Of a DNA stretch of 64,000 bases, positions 26,452 to 43,942 are shown piece after piece. This DNA is from Paeniglutamicibacter psychrophenolicus (GTDB lineage Bacteria > Actinomycetota > Actinomycetes > Actinomycetales > Micrococcaceae). Under the pieces are notes generated by a model that saw only the letters and a program-made list of their open reading frames with translations, was not told the DNA's origin and made no database searches. The stretch is from positions 124,001-188,000 of the forward strand of contig NZ_JAGIOE010000001.1 in the NCBI RefSeq assembly GCF_017876575.1, read 5' to 3'. Each line of letters begins with the position of its first letter. The first letter of the stretch is position 1. A program made the translations under genes and the position numbers.

Positions 26452-28041
26452 CTAGGCCTGTTGCCGCAGCACGTTCTTTTGCACCTTGCCGGTGGAGGTC
26501 CGCGGCAGGTCCTGCGGGAAGTGGATGGTCTTGGGAACCTTGAAGCCCGCCAGTTGCATGCGGGCGTGGGCCTGCAACGCAGCCGCGTCGATCTGCGAGC
26601 CGCTGGCCCGGATCACGTAGGCAACCGGGGTTTCCCCCCATTTCTCGTCCGGCACGCCGATCACCGCCACGTCAAGGACCTCCGGGTGGCTGGCGAATGC
26701 CTGCTCAACCTCGATGGTCGAGATGTTTTCCCCGCCGGAAATGATGATGTCCTTGGCGCGGTCCTTGAGCTGGATGTAGCCGTCGGGGTGCATCACTCCC
26801 AGGTCCCCGGTGTGGAACCAGCCCCCTGCGAACGCCGCGGCGGTGGCTTCTTCGTCCCGGTAGTAGCCGATCATCACGTTGTTGCCGCGCAGCACGATTT
26901 CACCCATGGTCTCCCCGTCGGCCGGCACGTCGTTCATGTCCGGATCCACGATGCGCGCCGATTCGGCCTGGACCATGCCCACGCCCTGCCGCGAGACCCG
27001 TTGGGCCTTGGCCTCGTCGTCCAGCTCGTTCCATGCGTCCTGGTACTCGCAGATCGTGTAGGGCCCATAGACCTCGGTGAGGCCGTAGACGTGGACGACC
27101 TCGATGCCCAGTTTTTGCAGCTTCCGGATGATCGCCGGCGAGGGCGGGGCCCCTGCGGTGGTGATCCTGATGCCGCGTTCCAGCTCGTGGGCCCGGGGCG
27201 AGTCGGCGATGATCGAGCAGACCGTCGGGGCGCCGCACAGGTGGGTGACGCCGAGGTTGTCAATCGCGTCCCACACCGGTTCCTCGCGGACCGCCCGCAG
27301 GCACAGGTGCGTGCCGCCGGCCGCGGTGACGGCCCAGGGCGTGCACCAGCCGTTGCAATGGAACATCGGCAGGGTCCACAGGTATCGGGTGCGGGCGTCA
27401 AAGCCCTGGTGGAAGGCCTCCCCCATCGAGTTCAGGTAGCTGCCGCGGTGCGAATACAGCACGCCCTTGGGCTTGCCGGTGGTTCCCGAGGTGTAGTTCA
27501 GCGCGATCGGAGCCCGTTCGTCGGCAATCGCGTACCCGAGGTCCGTCCCGGTGCCGGTGGCAATGAACTCCGCGTAGGTGCCATCCACGAGGACGTCGGG
27601 CCTGCCGCCGGTGAATTCGGCATCTTGGATCTCAATGATCGCTTCCAAGGTCGGGACCTCGGCGTGCAGCGTCTCCACCGCACCGAGGAGCTCCGAGTCG
27701 GCAAAGAGCATCTTCGTTGCCGAGTGCTCCATGATGTAGCCGAGTTCGCGGGCCGAAAGCCTGGTGTTCAATGCCACGAGCACGCCGCCGGCCAGCGGGA
27801 CGGCGTAGTGGGCGATGAGCATTTCCGGGATGTTCGGTGCCAGCACCGCGACGCGGTCCCCGGGCTCTATCCGCGCGGCCAGCGCCTTGGCGAATTGCTG
27901 CACCTCCGCCCCGAATTGCGCATAGCTGTAGGACCGTGCCCCGTGCACGATGGCTTCCTTGGACGGGTACACCTCCACGGAGCGCTGCAGGAATCGCAGT
28001 GGTGTCAGTTCCGAGTGGTTGGCCAGTGGTTGCACGCCCAT
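26452..28041 (-). CDS. AMP-forming acyl-CoA synthetase
   Basis: A 529 aa adenylate-forming ligase that activates a carboxylic acid, probably a fatty or aryl acid, with ATP and CoA. The P-loop-like motif YTSGTTGKPKG is near residue 175, VYGLTEVYGP near 310, GWFHTGDLG near 408 and DRAKDIIISGGENIS near 430. The C-terminal catalytic lysine lies in PRTSTGKVQK near residue 518. GAGGAG precedes the ATG at 28041; an upstream ATG adds 24 residues without a ribosome binding site. It resembles the medium/long-chain AlkK/FadD-type group. No beta-oxidation genes are adjacent. Confidence 0.88.
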   Translation of the reverse strand: MGVQPLANHSELTPLRFLQRSVEVYPSKEAIVHGARSYSYAQFGAEVQQFAKALAARIEPGDRVAVLAPNIPEMLIAHYAVPLAGGVLVALNTRLSARELGYIMEHSATKMLFADSELLGAVETLHAEVPTLEAIIEIQDAEFTGGRPDVLVDGTYAEFIATGTGTDLGYAIADERAPIALNYTSGTTGKPKGVLYSHRGSYLNSMGEAFHQGFDARTRYLWTLPMFHCNGWCTPWAVTAAGGTHLCLRAVREEPVWDAIDNLGVTHLCGAPTVCSIIADSPRAHELERGIRITTAGAPPSPAIIRKLQKLGIEVVHVYGLTEVYGPYTICEYQDAWNELDDEAKAQRVSRQGVGMVQAESARIVDPDMNDVPADGETMGEIVLRGNNVMIGYYRDEEATAAAFAGGWFHTGDLGVMHPDGYIQLKDRAKDIIISGGENISTIEVEQAFASHPEVLDVAVIGVPDEKWGETPVAYVIRASGSQIDAAALQAHARMQLAGFKVPKTIHFPQDLPRTSTGKVQKNVLRQQA

Positions 28042-38570: not shown

Positions 38571-39194
38571 CTAGATGCTGGTGGTTGCCACGTCGACGTC
38601 CAGGCGCGGCAGGCGATCGAACCACGGGTTCTCGCCGGGGGCGCCCACGTTGACGATGAGGAACGCGTGGTTGGCGGAGTCCGCGTTGATGACCGAATCC
38701 ACTCCGGCAGCGTCGAAGCCGCCCATCGGGCCGGCGTGCAGTCCGGCCGCGCGAACGGCCATGATGAAGTAGCCGGCCTGCATCCAGGCATTGTTCTTGG
38801 CGATTTCGGCGCGCGAGGCGGCATCCTGGTCGAACATGGCCTTGCGCTCGGGAGCGTGGGGGAAGAACACCGGAAACTGTTCGTGCCAGTCGGCGTCGTA
38901 GCTAAGCACCGCAAGCGCCGGGGCGGCCAGGGACTTGGCCCGGTTCCCTTCCATCATCTTGGCGACGACTGCCTCGCGGGCCTCGGCGCTCTTGACCCAG
39001 GTGATGCGCAGCGGCTGGTTGTTCATCATCGTCGGGCCCATTTTGGTGAGCTCGTAGATGGCATCGAGGGTCTCGTCGGCCACGACTTCCTCGGAGAAGG
39101 TGTTTGCGGTGCGGGCTTCAAGGAAGAGCTTGTCTGCGGTGTCGGCATCGATCGACAGTTGGTCGTACACGGTTGCGGCGGTTTCAACGCTCAT
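38571..39194 (-). CDS. Nitroreductase-family malonic semialdehyde reductase-like protein (RutE-type)
   Basis: A 207 aa flavin-dependent reductase of the RutE/HadB group. ELTKMGPTMMNNQPLRITWV near residue 49 is the FMN-binding helix with the subgroup's Asn-Asn-Gln, and IMAVRAAGLHAGPMGGFD near residue 144 and VNVGAPGENPWFDRLPRLD near 187 are RutE hallmarks. In uracil catabolism RutE reduces malonic semialdehyde, but no other rut genes are in the window, so a general quinone or nitro reductase role is equally possible. It is monocistronic. Confidence 0.8.
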   Translation of the reverse strand: MSVETAATVYDQLSIDADTADKLFLEARTANTFSEEVVADETLDAIYELTKMGPTMMNNQPLRITWVKSAEAREAVVAKMMEGNRAKSLAAPALAVLSYDADWHEQFPVFFPHAPERKAMFDQDAASRAEIAKNNAWMQAGYFIMAVRAAGLHAGPMGGFDAAGVDSVINADSANHAFLIVNVGAPGENPWFDRLPRLDVDVATTSI

Positions 39195-39638: not shown

Positions 39639-40931
39639 TCACAATTGGTCCGAGGCCTCGGAGGTGTCCTCGGAAGCCTTGAGGTCTTGGTCGATGGTGG
39701 TGGCCGGGAGTTCGGCACGCACCACCCAATCGCCGCGGACTCGCTTGGCGGAGAGGGTGCCGCCGAAGGCCGCCATCCGGTCGGACATGCCGACGATGCC
39801 CGAGCTGTGCCCGCCAACGTCGAAACCTTGGTCCATGACGTGGCGGGGTAGCGAGTTGGCAATTTCCAGCCATACCCGGTCCCCGACCACGAGTGCCTCA
39901 ATGCGACATGCGGCATGCGGCTCCGCATGCTTGACGATATTCGTCGTGGATTCCTGCAGAACCCTATATAGCGCGGCCTGCGCGGACTGCGGCAAGCCAG
40001 CAAGCCTCGGATCGGCCATGGTCTTCGTCGGATGGCCAAGATCAATCAGCCGCTCGGCAAACACCTCGACACCGATGAGGATCTCTAGGCTGCTGGCTGC
40101 ATTTCCCGCCGAGTCAACGAGTGATCCGTCCACGCGGGTCGCGGACCCGTCCGATCGCAGGACGTTGAGCATGACGCGGAGGTCCTGCAGCGCCTCCTTC
40201 GAGGTATTCCCAATGACCTTGAGCGCGGCCTGGGCAACGGCGGGATCCCCCGAAAAACCTGCGGCCTTGGCCTGCATGGAAATCACGGTGATGTCATGGG
40301 CCACGATGTCGTGCAGGTCTCTGGCAATGGCCTTGCGCTCGGCCTCCACGGCTTCTTGCTGCTTGCGGCGCAGGTCTTCGATGCGTCGTCTGTCGGACTC
40401 ACGCTGATCTTGGTACTTTCGAGCGAAAAGTGCCACAAAATAGGCCACTGCTAGCAACGGCACGAGAATAATCAGGAAACCCACGTCATAGGATCTGACA
40501 ACGATGATCAGGATGGCCCAGAGTCCAGTTATACATAGGTACCTGAAAGCAAACCTGCGAGTTTCCACCAAACTAATCAGACCGACCAGTAGGGGAACCA
40601 CGAGCAGCGAGAAAAGATAGGCGCCCGTAAAAACGGTCAGCGCCATGGCAACAATTGAGACGATGACTGCGTACCGCGCCCGGACCCAAAGCAGTCCAAT
40701 AGAAAGAGTGTAGGTTGCGTTGACGCTGGCTTCAGTCGCACGCCGCTGAAATCTAACCGGGTCGGATTCGCTGACAAGGCTCACAATATCGGTGACGAAA
40801 AGCAGTGCGACAACACAGCTGGCCACCAGGAGAATCGTCCTTCCCAAAGTGGAGGACGACTTCTCGCTAGCGACTTCAGAGTCAGAAACGGTTGGATTCA
40901 CCGCTCTATTCTCACCCAAAGTAGGACTCAT
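39639..40931 (-). CDS. NarL-type sensor histidine kinase (HisKA_3) next to a secreted peptide
   Basis: A 430 aa membrane kinase. Six hydrophobic segments lie at about residues 32-50, 73-85, 87-105, 107-122, 129-146 and 149-170, with only short external loops. They are followed by a coiled segment and the HisKA_3 dimerisation helix with phospho-accepting His207 in ARDLHDIVAHDIT. The HATPase domain has an N-box TTNIVKHAEPH near 335-345 and a G-box GHSSGIVGMSDRM near 385. The compact multi-helix sensor resembles those of peptide- or membrane-sensing kinases. It starts 18 nt after the small secreted peptide gene and should share its mRNA. Its partner is the divergent response regulator. Confidence 0.9.
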   Translation of the reverse strand: MSPTLGENRAVNPTVSDSEVASEKSSSTLGRTILLVASCVVALLFVTDIVSLVSESDPVRFQRRATEASVNATYTLSIGLLWVRARYAVIVSIVAMALTVFTGAYLFSLLVVPLLVGLISLVETRRFAFRYLCITGLWAILIIVVRSYDVGFLIILVPLLAVAYFVALFARKYQDQRESDRRRIEDLRRKQQEAVEAERKAIARDLHDIVAHDITVISMQAKAAGFSGDPAVAQAALKVIGNTSKEALQDLRVMLNVLRSDGSATRVDGSLVDSAGNAASSLEILIGVEVFAERLIDLGHPTKTMADPRLAGLPQSAQAALYRVLQESTTNIVKHAEPHAACRIEALVVGDRVWLEIANSLPRHVMDQGFDVGGHSSGIVGMSDRMAAFGGTLSAKRVRGDWVVRAELPATTIDQDLKASEDTSEASDQL

Positions 40932-40949
40932 TCCTATGAGCCCCGAGTT

Positions 40950-41159
40950 CTACCTAGGGCATGCCGCACCGAGGTAACGGCACAGCCAATCATTGAATGC
41001 ATCAGATGCACCGGCAGGCGAAGCAACCGGGAGAGAAGAGCCTTGGGATATGGGACCTGAGACAACGGCAGCCTGAGCAGGGATGGCGGCCGGCAGCAAC
41101 AGGGCAGCGGACATGGTTACAGCAGCGAAGATACGAGTTTTACGAGTCATGTTGCTCAT
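40950..41159 (-). CDS. Small secreted peptide with two cysteines, candidate signal for the adjacent kinase
   Basis: A 69 aa precursor. A positively charged N-terminus (MSNMTRKTR) is followed by a hydrophobic core and a clear Sec cleavage site PAQA-AVV, releasing about 39 residues that are Gly/Ser/Pro-rich. The mature peptide ends in the aromatic motif DWLCRYLGAACPR, whose two Cys residues are separated by six and could form a ring. Alternative ATGs at 41177 and 41150 are possible; none has a strong ribosome binding site. It is immediately upstream of the kinase gene, 18 nt apart. No known family was recognised. A pheromone or kinase-modulating peptide is inferred from context only. Confidence 0.6.
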   Translation of the reverse strand: MSNMTRKTRIFAAVTMSAALLLPAAIPAQAAVVSGPISQGSSLPVASPAGASDAFNDWLCRYLGAACPR

Positions 41160-41179
41160 TCTTGCACTTATTTCCATAA

Positions 41180-41253
41180 GTCAACAGGTGTTTTCCCAAA
41201 AGTTCATGTTGTTGACCATCAAAGACGCTGATTACCCAAAAGCTCACTAGACT
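41180..41253. promoter_or_regulatory. Shared divergent control region with 40-bp-spaced direct repeats
   Basis: CCCAAAAGTTCA (41195-41206) and CCCAAAAGCTCA (41235-41246) are direct repeats 40 bp apart, about four helical turns. GTCAACA (41180-41186) and TGTTGAC (41210-41216) are inverted repeats that include a TTGAC element in each direction. TAGACT at 41248-41253 ends 7 nt before the GTG of the response regulator and lies 1 nt after the second repeat. This looks like a response-regulator binding region serving both promoters. Confidence 0.55.
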
Positions 41254-41260
41254 CAAGGCT

Positions 41261-41932
41261 GTGACCGACATCCAAGTTCTCGTGGTTGATAACGAACCAC
41301 TCATGCGCCAAGCCCTCAAAATCATCCTTGAAGCCGCCCCGGGGTTTCAATGGCTTGGAGAAGCGACAAACGGCATCGAAGCCGTCGACTTCTGCGCGGG
41401 CAACAATCCGGATGTAATCCTCATGGACATGCAAATGCCCCGCATGGACGGTGTTGAAGCAACCAGCATCATCACCACAAATTACCCGGGCATTGGCGTA
41501 CTTGCCATCACCGCATTTTCCTCGGAGGAATACCTGGTCCCGGCTCTTCGCGCAGGAGCCGCTGGTTACCTGGTCAAGGACGCCGAGCCCACGGAAATCC
41601 TCGCAGCCATCCAGGCAGTGCAAGACGGAAGCGCGGCGATTTCCGCGTCGGTGTCGCAGGACCTAATTCGCGCAATTCGCGAAGCCCACGACGTAAAGCC
41701 CAGCAGTTCCATCGGGCCGAACCCCATGGCTCTGTCCGAGCGGGAGCAGGAAGTCCTCCAACTACTCGCACGGGGCAGAAACAATCCGGAGATGGCCGCA
41801 GAATTGCACATTTCCGAGGCAACTGTGAAAGCCCACCTGAGTCGAGTCATGGCAAAATTCGGCGTCCGGGACAGGGTCCAGGCCCTGATTCGTGCCGCCC
41901 AATACGGACTGGTCGAGCTTCATATGGACTAA
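41261..41932 (+). CDS. NarL/LuxR-family response regulator
   Basis: A 223 aa two-component regulator starting at GTG. The receiver domain has the acidic pocket VVDNEP (Asp10), phospho-acceptor Asp56 in VILMDMQMP, the conserved Thr84 in ITAF, and Lys106 in YLVKDA. A linker leads to a LuxR-type HTH at about residues 158-215 (LSEREQEVLQLLARGRNN, then ATVKAHLSRVMAKFGVRDR). The likely partner is the kinase at 39639-40931, transcribed divergently. A TAGACT box 7 nt before the GTG implies a leaderless mRNA, and an adjacent direct repeat suggests autoregulation. Confidence 0.92.
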   Translation: MTDIQVLVVDNEPLMRQALKIILEAAPGFQWLGEATNGIEAVDFCAGNNPDVILMDMQMPRMDGVEATSIITTNYPGIGVLAITAFSSEEYLVPALRAGAAGYLVKDAEPTEILAAIQAVQDGSAAISASVSQDLIRAIREAHDVKPSSSIGPNPMALSEREQEVLQLLARGRNNPEMAAELHISEATVKAHLSRVMAKFGVRDRVQALIRAAQYGLVELHMD

Positions 41933-42160: not shown

Positions 42161-43942
42161 ATGACAACCGAACAGACAAAGACGAGTACATCACCCCGTG
42201 TACACCGGTGGGTCTTCTGGCCCGCGGCCATTATCACCATTGTTTTTGCCACGTTCGCCATGACCATGCCCGGTACGGCAGAGTCATTCTTCTCATCCAT
42301 CCAGACGAAGATCATCGGATACTTCAACTGGTACTACGTCCTGATTGCAACGGGCTTTGTGGTGTTCAGTCTCTGGCTGGGATTCGGGAAATTCGGCGAG
42401 ATCAAGCTCGGCAAGGACGAAGACGAACCGGAGTTCTCCCTGGGTTCCTGGTTCTCGCTTCTCTTTGCCGCAGGGATGGGCATCGGCCTGGTTTTCTACG
42501 GCGTCTCCGAGCCGCTGAGCCACTTTGCCTCACCCAAACCCGGCGCTTCGGGGTCCCCGGCAGACCTTGCCCAACAGGCCCAGGCCCAAACGTTCCTGCA
42601 CTGGGGCGTCCATGCGTGGTCGATCTACGTTGTCATCGGGTTGGCCCTGGCCTACGCGATCCACCGGCGAGGCCGACCCATTTCGATCCGCTGGACCCTC
42701 GAACCATTGCTGGGTCGCAAGGTCCATGGCGGCCTCGGCAACCTCATTGACGTTGTAGCCCTGGTCGGCACGATCTTCGGTGTGGCCACCTCACTGGGCT
42801 TGGGCGTCCTGCAGATCAGTGCCGGCCTGGAAAGCGCCGGCATGTTCAAGGCCTCCCAATTCATCGACATCGTCATCATTGCCGTCGTCACCTGCCTGGT
42901 GCTCTTCTCCGTGCTTTCGGGCGTTGGCAAGGGCATGAAGTGGCTCTCGAACACCAACCTGATCTTGGCCGGGGTGTTCGTCGCCTTCCTGCTGATTGTT
43001 GGTCCCACGCAATTCCTTCTGCGCAACTTCGTGCAGTCGATCGGCAACTACCTGCAAAACTTCCTTGCCATGTCCTTCAACGTCAGTGCCTTCACCGGCG
43101 CCGAAGGCGAAGCCTGGCAGGGCGTGTGGACCACGTTCTACTGGGGCTGGTGGATTTCCTGGGCCCCGTTCGTGGGCATCTTCATCGCCAGGATCTCCCG
43201 CGGCCGCACGGTGCGCCAGTTCGTTGGCGGAGTCATCCTGGTCCCCACGGTTGTCACCATGCTGTGGTTCGCCGTCCTGGGAGGAACCGCGATCTACGGC
43301 CAGCTGCAAGGCACCGGGAACCTCGTGGCTGCCGACCGCTCGATCGACACCGAAGGCGCGTTGTTCGCCATGCTGGACACCTTGCCGGCCGGTTCCGTGC
43401 TGACGGTCGGGGCAATCATCATGATTGTCATCTTCTTCGTCACCTCGGCCGACTCGGGCGCACTGGTCATGGGCATGATCGCCACCGGCGGCGACGTGGA
43501 ACCGAAGAACTGGATCCGCATTTTCTTCACGCTGGCCACTTCCCTGCTGGCCGCTTCGCTGCTCATATCCGGAGGCCTCGAAGCCCTCAAAACCGCAGCC
43601 ATCGTCATCGCGTTGCCCTTCAGCATTGTCTTGATCATGATCTGCTGGGCGACGTACCGGGCGTTTTCCCGTGAAGTGAAGGTCTATGAGAAGGCCCGAC
43701 GGATGGCGTTCGTGGACCACATCGGTGACTTCTACGGGTTGGAAGTTGAAGGCCCGAACCGGGATTCGCAGCTGCTCAATCTCCAGAACCTGACGGCAAG
43801 GCTGCGCCGGGCCGTTCCCCAGGGTCGTCGAGCCGATGCCGCGGTGCCGGCTGTCTTAGTTGGCGCGACAGCTGTCCATGGCGCAGACGCACCCAAGGCC
43901 GATGCCGGACAGCCCGGAGGGCACCCCAAGTCCACCAACTAG
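42161..43942 (+). CDS. BCCT-family betaine/choline/carnitine transporter
   Basis: A 593 aa sodium- or proton-coupled importer of betaine-type osmolytes. It has about 12 membrane helices; the glycine-rich segment AAGMGIGLVFYGVSEPL near residue 105 is the BetP-type substrate and sodium site region. HWGVHAWSIYV near residue 148 and GWWISWAPFVGIFIARISRGR near residue 328 (the Trp box) are hallmarks. The short N-terminus and a C-terminal tail with charged residues fit osmosensing members. The substrate within the family is not resolved. It lies 228 nt after the response regulator but has its own -10 box. Confidence 0.92.
   Translation: MTTEQTKTSTSPRVHRWVFWPAAIITIVFATFAMTMPGTAESFFSSIQTKIIGYFNWYYVLIATGFVVFSLWLGFGKFGEIKLGKDEDEPEFSLGSWFSLLFAAGMGIGLVFYGVSEPLSHFASPKPGASGSPADLAQQAQAQTFLHWGVHAWSIYVVIGLALAYAIHRRGRPISIRWTLEPLLGRKVHGGLGNLIDVVALVGTIFGVATSLGLGVLQISAGLESAGMFKASQFIDIVIIAVVTCLVLFSVLSGVGKGMKWLSNTNLILAGVFVAFLLIVGPTQFLLRNFVQSIGNYLQNFLAMSFNVSAFTGAEGEAWQGVWTTFYWGWWISWAPFVGIFIARISRGRTVRQFVGGVILVPTVVTMLWFAVLGGTAIYGQLQGTGNLVAADRSIDTEGALFAMLDTLPAGSVLTVGAIIMIVIFFVTSADSGALVMGMIATGGDVEPKNWIRIFFTLATSLLAASLLISGGLEALKTAAIVIALPFSIVLIMICWATYRAFSREVKVYEKARRMAFVDHIGDFYGLEVEGPNRDSQLLNLQNLTARLRRAVPQGRRADAAVPAVLVGATAVHGADAPKADAGQPGGHPKSTN

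Follow-up and report, generated by a model that had tools for sequence, protein, structure and literature searches.

A probable peptide-signalling locus with a diverging peptide-sensor cassette in Paeniglutamicibacter psychrophenolicus and related Micrococcaceae

The 64,000-nucleotide stretch of Paeniglutamicibacter psychrophenolicus DNA that was analysed here as a whole (the window) contains a locus which, judged by comparison of sequences, is likely to serve peptide signalling and to be diverging in its specificity, an autoinducing peptide being sensed by the adjacent kinase in this reading. The precursor would be exported through Sec and cut by signal peptidase after AxA, and the C-terminal end W-x-C-x-x-aromatic-G-x-x-C could then close a small disulfide loop outside the cell. 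No enzyme devoted to maturing or exporting the peptide is encoded at the locus. Sensing of the peptide is proposed for the membrane half of the neighbouring HisKA_3 kinase, and the kinase would phosphorylate the divergent NarL-type regulator, which probably targets the common promoter region as well as genes outside the locus. The mature peptide would diversify together with the sensor as one cassette, giving rise to related species with different peptide-receptor types. We infer that the peptide is the ligand of the kinase; the disulfide, binding, the sign of the response, density sensing, autoregulation and the targets are presumed parts of this scheme. The following features were assigned in the window.

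38571-39194: RutE-like malonic semialdehyde reductase, flanking gene
39639-40901, minus strand: membrane sensor histidine kinase, HisKA_3, with DesK-like core and GTG start
39639-40931, minus strand: kinase frame as read in the first-pass annotation
40395-41079, minus strand: hypervariable block of mature peptide, spacer and kinase sensor half, from identity to locus L012
40921-40946, minus strand: hairpin between the peptide and kinase genes, with covariation
40950-41150, minus strand: peptide precursor gene from its conserved start, 66 aa; frame and start kept in 15 of 15 genus genomes
40950-41177, minus strand: peptide frame, 75 aa from the first ATG
40953-41069, minus strand: mature peptide, 39 aa, with variable linker and conserved C-terminal loop
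40959-40982, minus strand: C-terminal two-cysteine loop CRYLGAAC (C-X6-C), preceded by WL
41070-41150, minus strand: Sec-type signal peptide (MTRKTRIFAAVTMSAALLLPAAIPAQA); n-region, hydrophobic core and AQA by inspection
41179-41184, minus strand: TTGACT, candidate -35 element of the peptide gene with putative function; in 13 of 15 genus rows, absent from L022 and L023
41261-41932, plus strand: divergent NarL/LuxR-type response regulator with Response_reg and GerE
42161-43942: BCCT betaine/choline transporter, flanking gene

The first-pass annotation had described a precursor of 69 aa starting at 41159. While the small exported frame proved to be real, its conserved start is the ATG at 41150, where M(T/N) is found in 15 of 15 genus genomes. 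The mature 39 residues following PAQA end in DWLCRYLGAACPR, exactly as and where described. For the kinase, relatives do not retain the ATG at 40931 (L010 has AGG, L016 has GCG, and other codons occur in further genomes), but the aligned position of 40901 is GTG or ATG in all 15 genus genomes, and translation of the kinase probably starts at GTG 40901. Thus, the gap between the peptide and kinase genes measures 48 nt and contains the hairpin, which corrects the distance of 18 nt reported before.

The assignment of a NarL-type kinase and a divergent LuxR-type regulator was borne out by Pfam. The kinase contains HisKA_3 (PF07730; E 3.9e-17, 63 bits compared to a cut-off of 24), HATPase_c remaining under its cut-off (19.8 versus 26.4), and the regulator contains Response_reg (E 2.4e-27) and GerE (E 1.8e-19). 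By its domain and its NarL-type partner, the kinase belongs to the HisKA_3 (NarL-type) kinases. Six helices, as originally claimed for the kinase, are weakly supported: an AlphaFold2 model places six helices at the N-terminus with a mean pLDDT of 59.5, and when four kinases were scanned for hydropathy under strict settings, three to four clear segments emerged. The best PDB matches of this model revealed a DesK-like core. A discussion of the binding site was dropped because the pLDDT of 59.5 is too weak for this purpose. No protease, prenyltransferase or exporter gene was detected between or directly beside the regulator, peptide and kinase genes of the window.

A kinase profile search of 395 genomes of the family (E <= 1e-75) yielded 69 genomes of six genera. 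Sixty-eight of them were examined; G155 (genus g4) was left out since its kinase locus is cut by a contig end. All 15 Paeniglutamicibacter genomes (g1) combine the peptide with the kinase and the divergent regulator, and at 51 of 51 loci in five genera (g1, 15; g23, 18; g4, 7; g27, 2; g15, 9) the frame immediately preceding the kinase has a terminal C-X6-C, followed by at most four residues before the stop. At L142, two frames fit this rule and the one with a leader was kept. Hence, the gene order in relatives that the first-pass annotation had suggested to look for does exist, and an exported peptide gene is linked to a membrane kinase and a regulator, as in a peptide pheromone two-component system. 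The cysteine pair is invariant, a Trp precedes the first Cys at -2 in 39 of the 51 loci, loop position 4 is Y, L, F or W in 50 and position 5 is Gly in 47. The linker from leader to loop is variable in both length and sequence. Conserved Trp and Cys with a variable linker had been named in the first-pass annotation as support for a signal. A peptide-profile search of the order mostly matched the signal peptides of unrelated frames, and kinase-anchored searches worked better; few candidates were scored per genome (four in the family and order searches).

It has to be considered that the peptide frame may be a chance open frame, as it is short and shares no similarity with a known family. Representative peptides gave no meaningful match in Pfam and NCBIfam (one set of six peptides) or in PHROGs (two peptides), in agreement with the first-pass annotation, which recognised no known peptide family. 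However, a chance frame is contradicted by the conservation of start, leader, motif and stop. The mature part furthermore shows pN below pS in 17 of 18 close pairs, the relation being reversed in L149/L151, and as a background, nine of the 726 frames from stop to stop that reach 45 aa or more in the window, the peptide frame included, end in C-X6-C-X0-4. A chance frame was thus ruled out, its probability being close to nil.

The surroundings of the locus were compared for part of the loci. The RutE-like side is common to g1 and g23, and other flanks are shared among g4, g13 and g15. In this comparison, neither a target nor a conserved output gene was found beside the locus in all genera, nor does any gene other than regulator, peptide and kinase adjoin it in all genera. 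This argues against a small bacteriocin whose sensor for immunity or self-induction would be the kinase-regulator pair, even though the peptide is small, exported, cysteine-containing and variable as a bacteriocin might be. Moreover, no bacteriocin family exceeded the cut-off in Pfam or NCBIfam. Such a function is very improbable here, with the reservation that the roles of bacteriocin and signal are not mutually exclusive.

The sixth genus, g13 (loci L150, L155-L159, L162, L164-L170 and L172-L174), is a special case. The first-pass annotation had stated that its proposal would be refuted by relatives which retain kinase and regulator but miss the peptide. This applies to none of the 51 loci in the five other genera but to 14 of 17 genomes in g13, which possess no C-X6-C frame between regulator and kinase and whose sensors are not hypervariable. 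The other three loci (L172-L174) carry a different hydrophobic small frame that ends in FCRAFPxAxxC or ICRAFPTANGC. In the tree, g13 comes next to g4 and g15 at modest support (86/75); the branches of this tree are long and its deep forks open. With kinase and regulator present but no peptide, g13 lends itself to comparison as to what is sensed by the kinase alone.

Peptide-receptor specificity is suggested by the joint divergence of peptide and sensor, from which signal peptide and catalytic half are spared, similar to agr and comX. Between the window and L012, the synonymous difference (pS) amounts to 0.44 in the mature peptide (last 34 residues) and 0.74 in the kinase sensor, compared to 0.11 for the signal peptide, 0.15 in the catalytic part, 0.20 in the regulator and 0.11 (BCCT) and 0.13 (RutE-like) in the flanking genes. 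Identity is 55-83% within the block and mostly 88-98% on either side; the edges of the block at 40395 and 41079 were judged by eye from 60-nt windows. In another genus, the pair L144/L146 showed pS values of 0.00 for the signal peptide, 0.22 for the mature peptide and 0.72 for the sensor, with catalytic parts at pS 0.01 and pN 0.000, and the block of L176/L070 has a similarly sharp shape. Eighteen close pairs were chosen by hand. Sensor pS exceeded catalytic pS in all of them and mature-peptide pS exceeded signal-peptide pS in 17, L149/L151 being the exception, and the contrast is weak in L078/L175, L071/L136 and L160/L161. In sliding windows, three of four pairs show a drop in identity that starts at the signal-peptide border and stops ahead of the phospho-acceptor box, whereas the edges are blurred in the fourth, L071/L136.

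The regulator of the window locus is 97-98% identical to those of L010, L012 and L013, and the loop is CRYLGAAC, compared to CRNLGALC in the species that are nearest by regulator and catalytic part. The window sensor is closest to that of L011 (74%), whose regulator is 86% identical and whose loop is CRYFGAAC; it shares 69% each with the sensors of L013 and L016. Thus, the window shares the loop type CRY.GA.C with L011, the locus whose sensor is closest to its own.

Adjacency, co-diversification and the missing exporter gene would look alike if the peptide were a private membrane partner that holds the kinase of its own cell off or on, perhaps reporting the state of the envelope or the redox state via its cysteines, a pair that could be redox-sensitive. 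Yet, a private partner would have less reason for clear-edged cassette divergence between close species. Divergence of this kind is typical of competing signal types, as in agr and comX. We regard the private partner as unlikely and favour a secreted signal with diverging specificity.

A possible peptide-sensing system was already the proposal of the first-pass annotation and is supported, over and above the co-location of the genes, by the hypervariability of mature peptide and sensor, which distinguishes the locus from control kinases and from the peptide-less clade. In two species comparisons, four other HisKA_3 kinases each gave sensor pS values of 0.03-0.32 and pN values of 0.019-0.060, compared to 0.65-0.71 and 0.233-0.275 for the locus kinase (four kinases per comparison passed the motif, identity and length filters, and the sensor limits were slightly unlike those of the 18-pair comparison). 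In peptide-less g13, the ratio of sensor to catalytic pN is 1.15-1.24, calculated from only four close pairs with the three variant-peptide loci left out, whereas peptide-bearing pairs in the same divergence bins reached 1.55-2.74. The closest divergence bin, which holds no g13 pair, gave 6.99 for peptide-bearing pairs.

On the other hand, the sensor might be hypervariable for another cause, e.g. phage or antibiotic pressure on the kinase, the adjacent peptide being carried along. In favour of this, the variable block is contiguous, spacer included, and some sensors differ although the peptide ends of the pair agree: the last 16 peptide residues of L010/L013 are identical at a sensor pS of 0.51 and pN of 0.092, L010/L012 have nearly identical peptide ends at a sensor pS of 0.53, and L149/L151 have identical loops at a sensor pN of 0.155. 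By contrast, a peptide merely carried along does not match the finding that in 17 of 18 pairs the signal part has changed less than the mature one, the preservation of the loop at 51 of 51 loci or the peptide-less clade without sensor excess (only four close pairs). The chance that such a pressure accounts for the block is therefore slim.

For the preferred signalling system, it follows from the differing sensors at identical peptide ends that the loop alone does not explain the sensor variation. The linker differs in all three pairs. Either the linker matters, or the variation has partly another cause, or different stages have been caught. In L074/L128, peptide and sensor are both nearly the same (sensor pN 0.006), and the sensor pS of 0.13 is lower than the catalytic pS of 0.23. 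Joint diversification of peptide and sensor next to a conserved catalytic part and regulator, as in a peptide pheromone system, was found, with a weak correlation of distances. When the peptide end was compared with the sensor in partial Mantel tests that controlled for catalytic part and regulator, each of the four genera tested gave a positive but weak association (p 0.117, 0.095, 0.041 and 0.061). Across 50 distinct loci, partial r was 0.06 (p 0.11) for peptide and sensor and 0.52 (p 0.0002) for peptide and catalytic part; L017 was omitted from the distance tests as it is identical to L016. In g15, the synonymous sensor excess is slight (median 0.07), and the sensor excess vanishes past a catalytic pN of about 0.08.

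The hairpin at 40921-40946 is supported by covariation. Six of nine pairs show changes on both sides in 13 sequences, and none of 500 shuffles scored as high. The covariation score of 0.396 fell to 0.255 or less when the partner was slid by one to three columns. In the window copy, seven of nine positions pair by reading. It is conceivable that the hairpin sets the ratio of peptide to kinase transcript.

Intergenic alignments made per genus revealed TTGACT for the majority of g1 loci and GTATATAAG for the majority of g23 loci, with no motif common to all genera. Direct repeats of the form CCCAAAAG(T/C)TCA upstream of the peptide gene were rejected as regulator sites, as they are clear only in the window and the nearest species. 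Most g23 loci, such as L066 and L071, possess TTGACTT followed by ATTCGGC.TATGA between the peptide stop and the kinase. This arrangement resembles a separate kinase promoter, which would replace the strong hairpin of g1. In the window, TAGACT lies just ahead of the regulator GTG (41248-41263) and AAGAAT just ahead of the peptide ATG (41148-41167). Because these promoter-like elements are so near to the start codons, leaderless transcripts of regulator and peptide are possible.

Outside the family, such kinases are rare. A kinase search of 386 genomes of the order (E <= 1e-70) led to two genomes, and searches of the two families concerned (24 and 151 genomes, E <= 1e-60) retrieved them from one and four genomes, respectively. 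At each of the resulting six loci in five genomes, the kinase is preceded by a small frame that combines a hydrophobic leader with a terminal cysteine pair, the ending being C-X6-C in L194, L196, L197 and L198, C-X5-C in L195 and C-X9-C in L199. A regulator is adjacent at each of these loci and is divergent in five. In L199 (G740:C4, kinase match 26536-27570), a divergent copy that is the second one of its genome, all three genes share the same strand.

Genus g15 is apparently Micrococcus, since the catalase of one of its genomes is identical across 379 residues to PDB 1gwe, which we take to be the Micrococcus luteus catalase. The genome with this M. luteus-type catalase carries the system as L161 (G133:C1:320300-327300), with a peptide ending in EWTCRHFGIWCD. 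M. luteus is a model for natural transformation. According to a 2026 paper, evidence that this species has a dedicated peptide or two-component system for inducing competence is currently lacking (PMC12849477). A link to competence via the regulator Mlut_14110 was discarded: this regulator, listed as one of the citrate/malate type, forms one operon with its own kinase (PMC8467076), and on that account does not look like the regulator of the system described here. The literature searches, which covered few subscription papers, brought up no account of a comparable system for these bacteria.

Whether the loci constitute an undescribed peptide pheromone family throughout the Micrococcales, Micrococcus included, with Sec-exported peptides for which signal peptidase and the spontaneous closure of a disulfide loop suffice, DesK-like kinases and a peptide-sensor cassette that is exchanged or diverging, is a tentative proposition whose chances are just short of even. 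If true, it would provide a general cell-to-cell peptide code for these high-GC Gram-positives. The 51 peptide-kinase pairs, the clear specificity cassettes and the simple chemistry (unmodified, two cysteines) make the proposal directly testable with synthetic peptides.

Peptide pheromones sensed by membrane kinases have been worked out mainly in Bacillota. Like the ComQXPA system of Bacillus, the locus has a small peptide gene directly upstream of a multi-helix kinase, a NarL/LuxR-type regulator and a polymorphic peptide and receptor. The differences are the Sec signal, the divergent regulator and the lack of a prenyltransferase between the genes; the peptide has a two-cysteine loop instead of the prenylated Trp of ComX. 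At the locus, no ComQ prenyltransferase lies between the genes, and the flanks encode the RutE-like reductase and the BCCT transporter. Likewise, the peptide belongs to no Pfam family and no NCBIfam model came near its cut-off, so that a ComX family was not detected. In ComQXPA, all four genes share a single strand (PMC4008528).

With Agr (AgrBDCA) of staphylococci and their relatives, the locus has in common a ring-forming C-terminal cysteine peptide, a membrane kinase and a hypervariable block of signal and sensor that is flanked by conserved parts. It deviates by its HisKA_3/DesK-like kinase, its Sec signal and a ring that would be a disulfide and not a thiolactone. The best match to AgrB in the genome reached 16.3 bits against a cut-off of 23 and has a stop inside, and an AgrD-type precursor was not matched in Pfam, the leader being of the Sec type with AxA by inspection. 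The streptococcal pheromones of the ComCDE and BlpC type are also leader-bearing peptides sensed by a membrane kinase. However, the window leader ends in PAQA (AxA site), there is no double-glycine leader in the window peptide, and the kinase is of a different class. In its catalytic core, the kinase matches DesK in structure and HisKA_3 in sequence and thus resembles kinases of the DesK/LiaS type. Those are sensors of membrane state or stress, though, while here a peptide gene is fixed beside the kinase and the sensor is hypervariable. The combination of a peptide pheromone with a membrane kinase is known; what appears to be new is its variation by Sec export, a cysteine loop that would need no maturation enzyme, a DesK-like kinase and an actinobacterial host.
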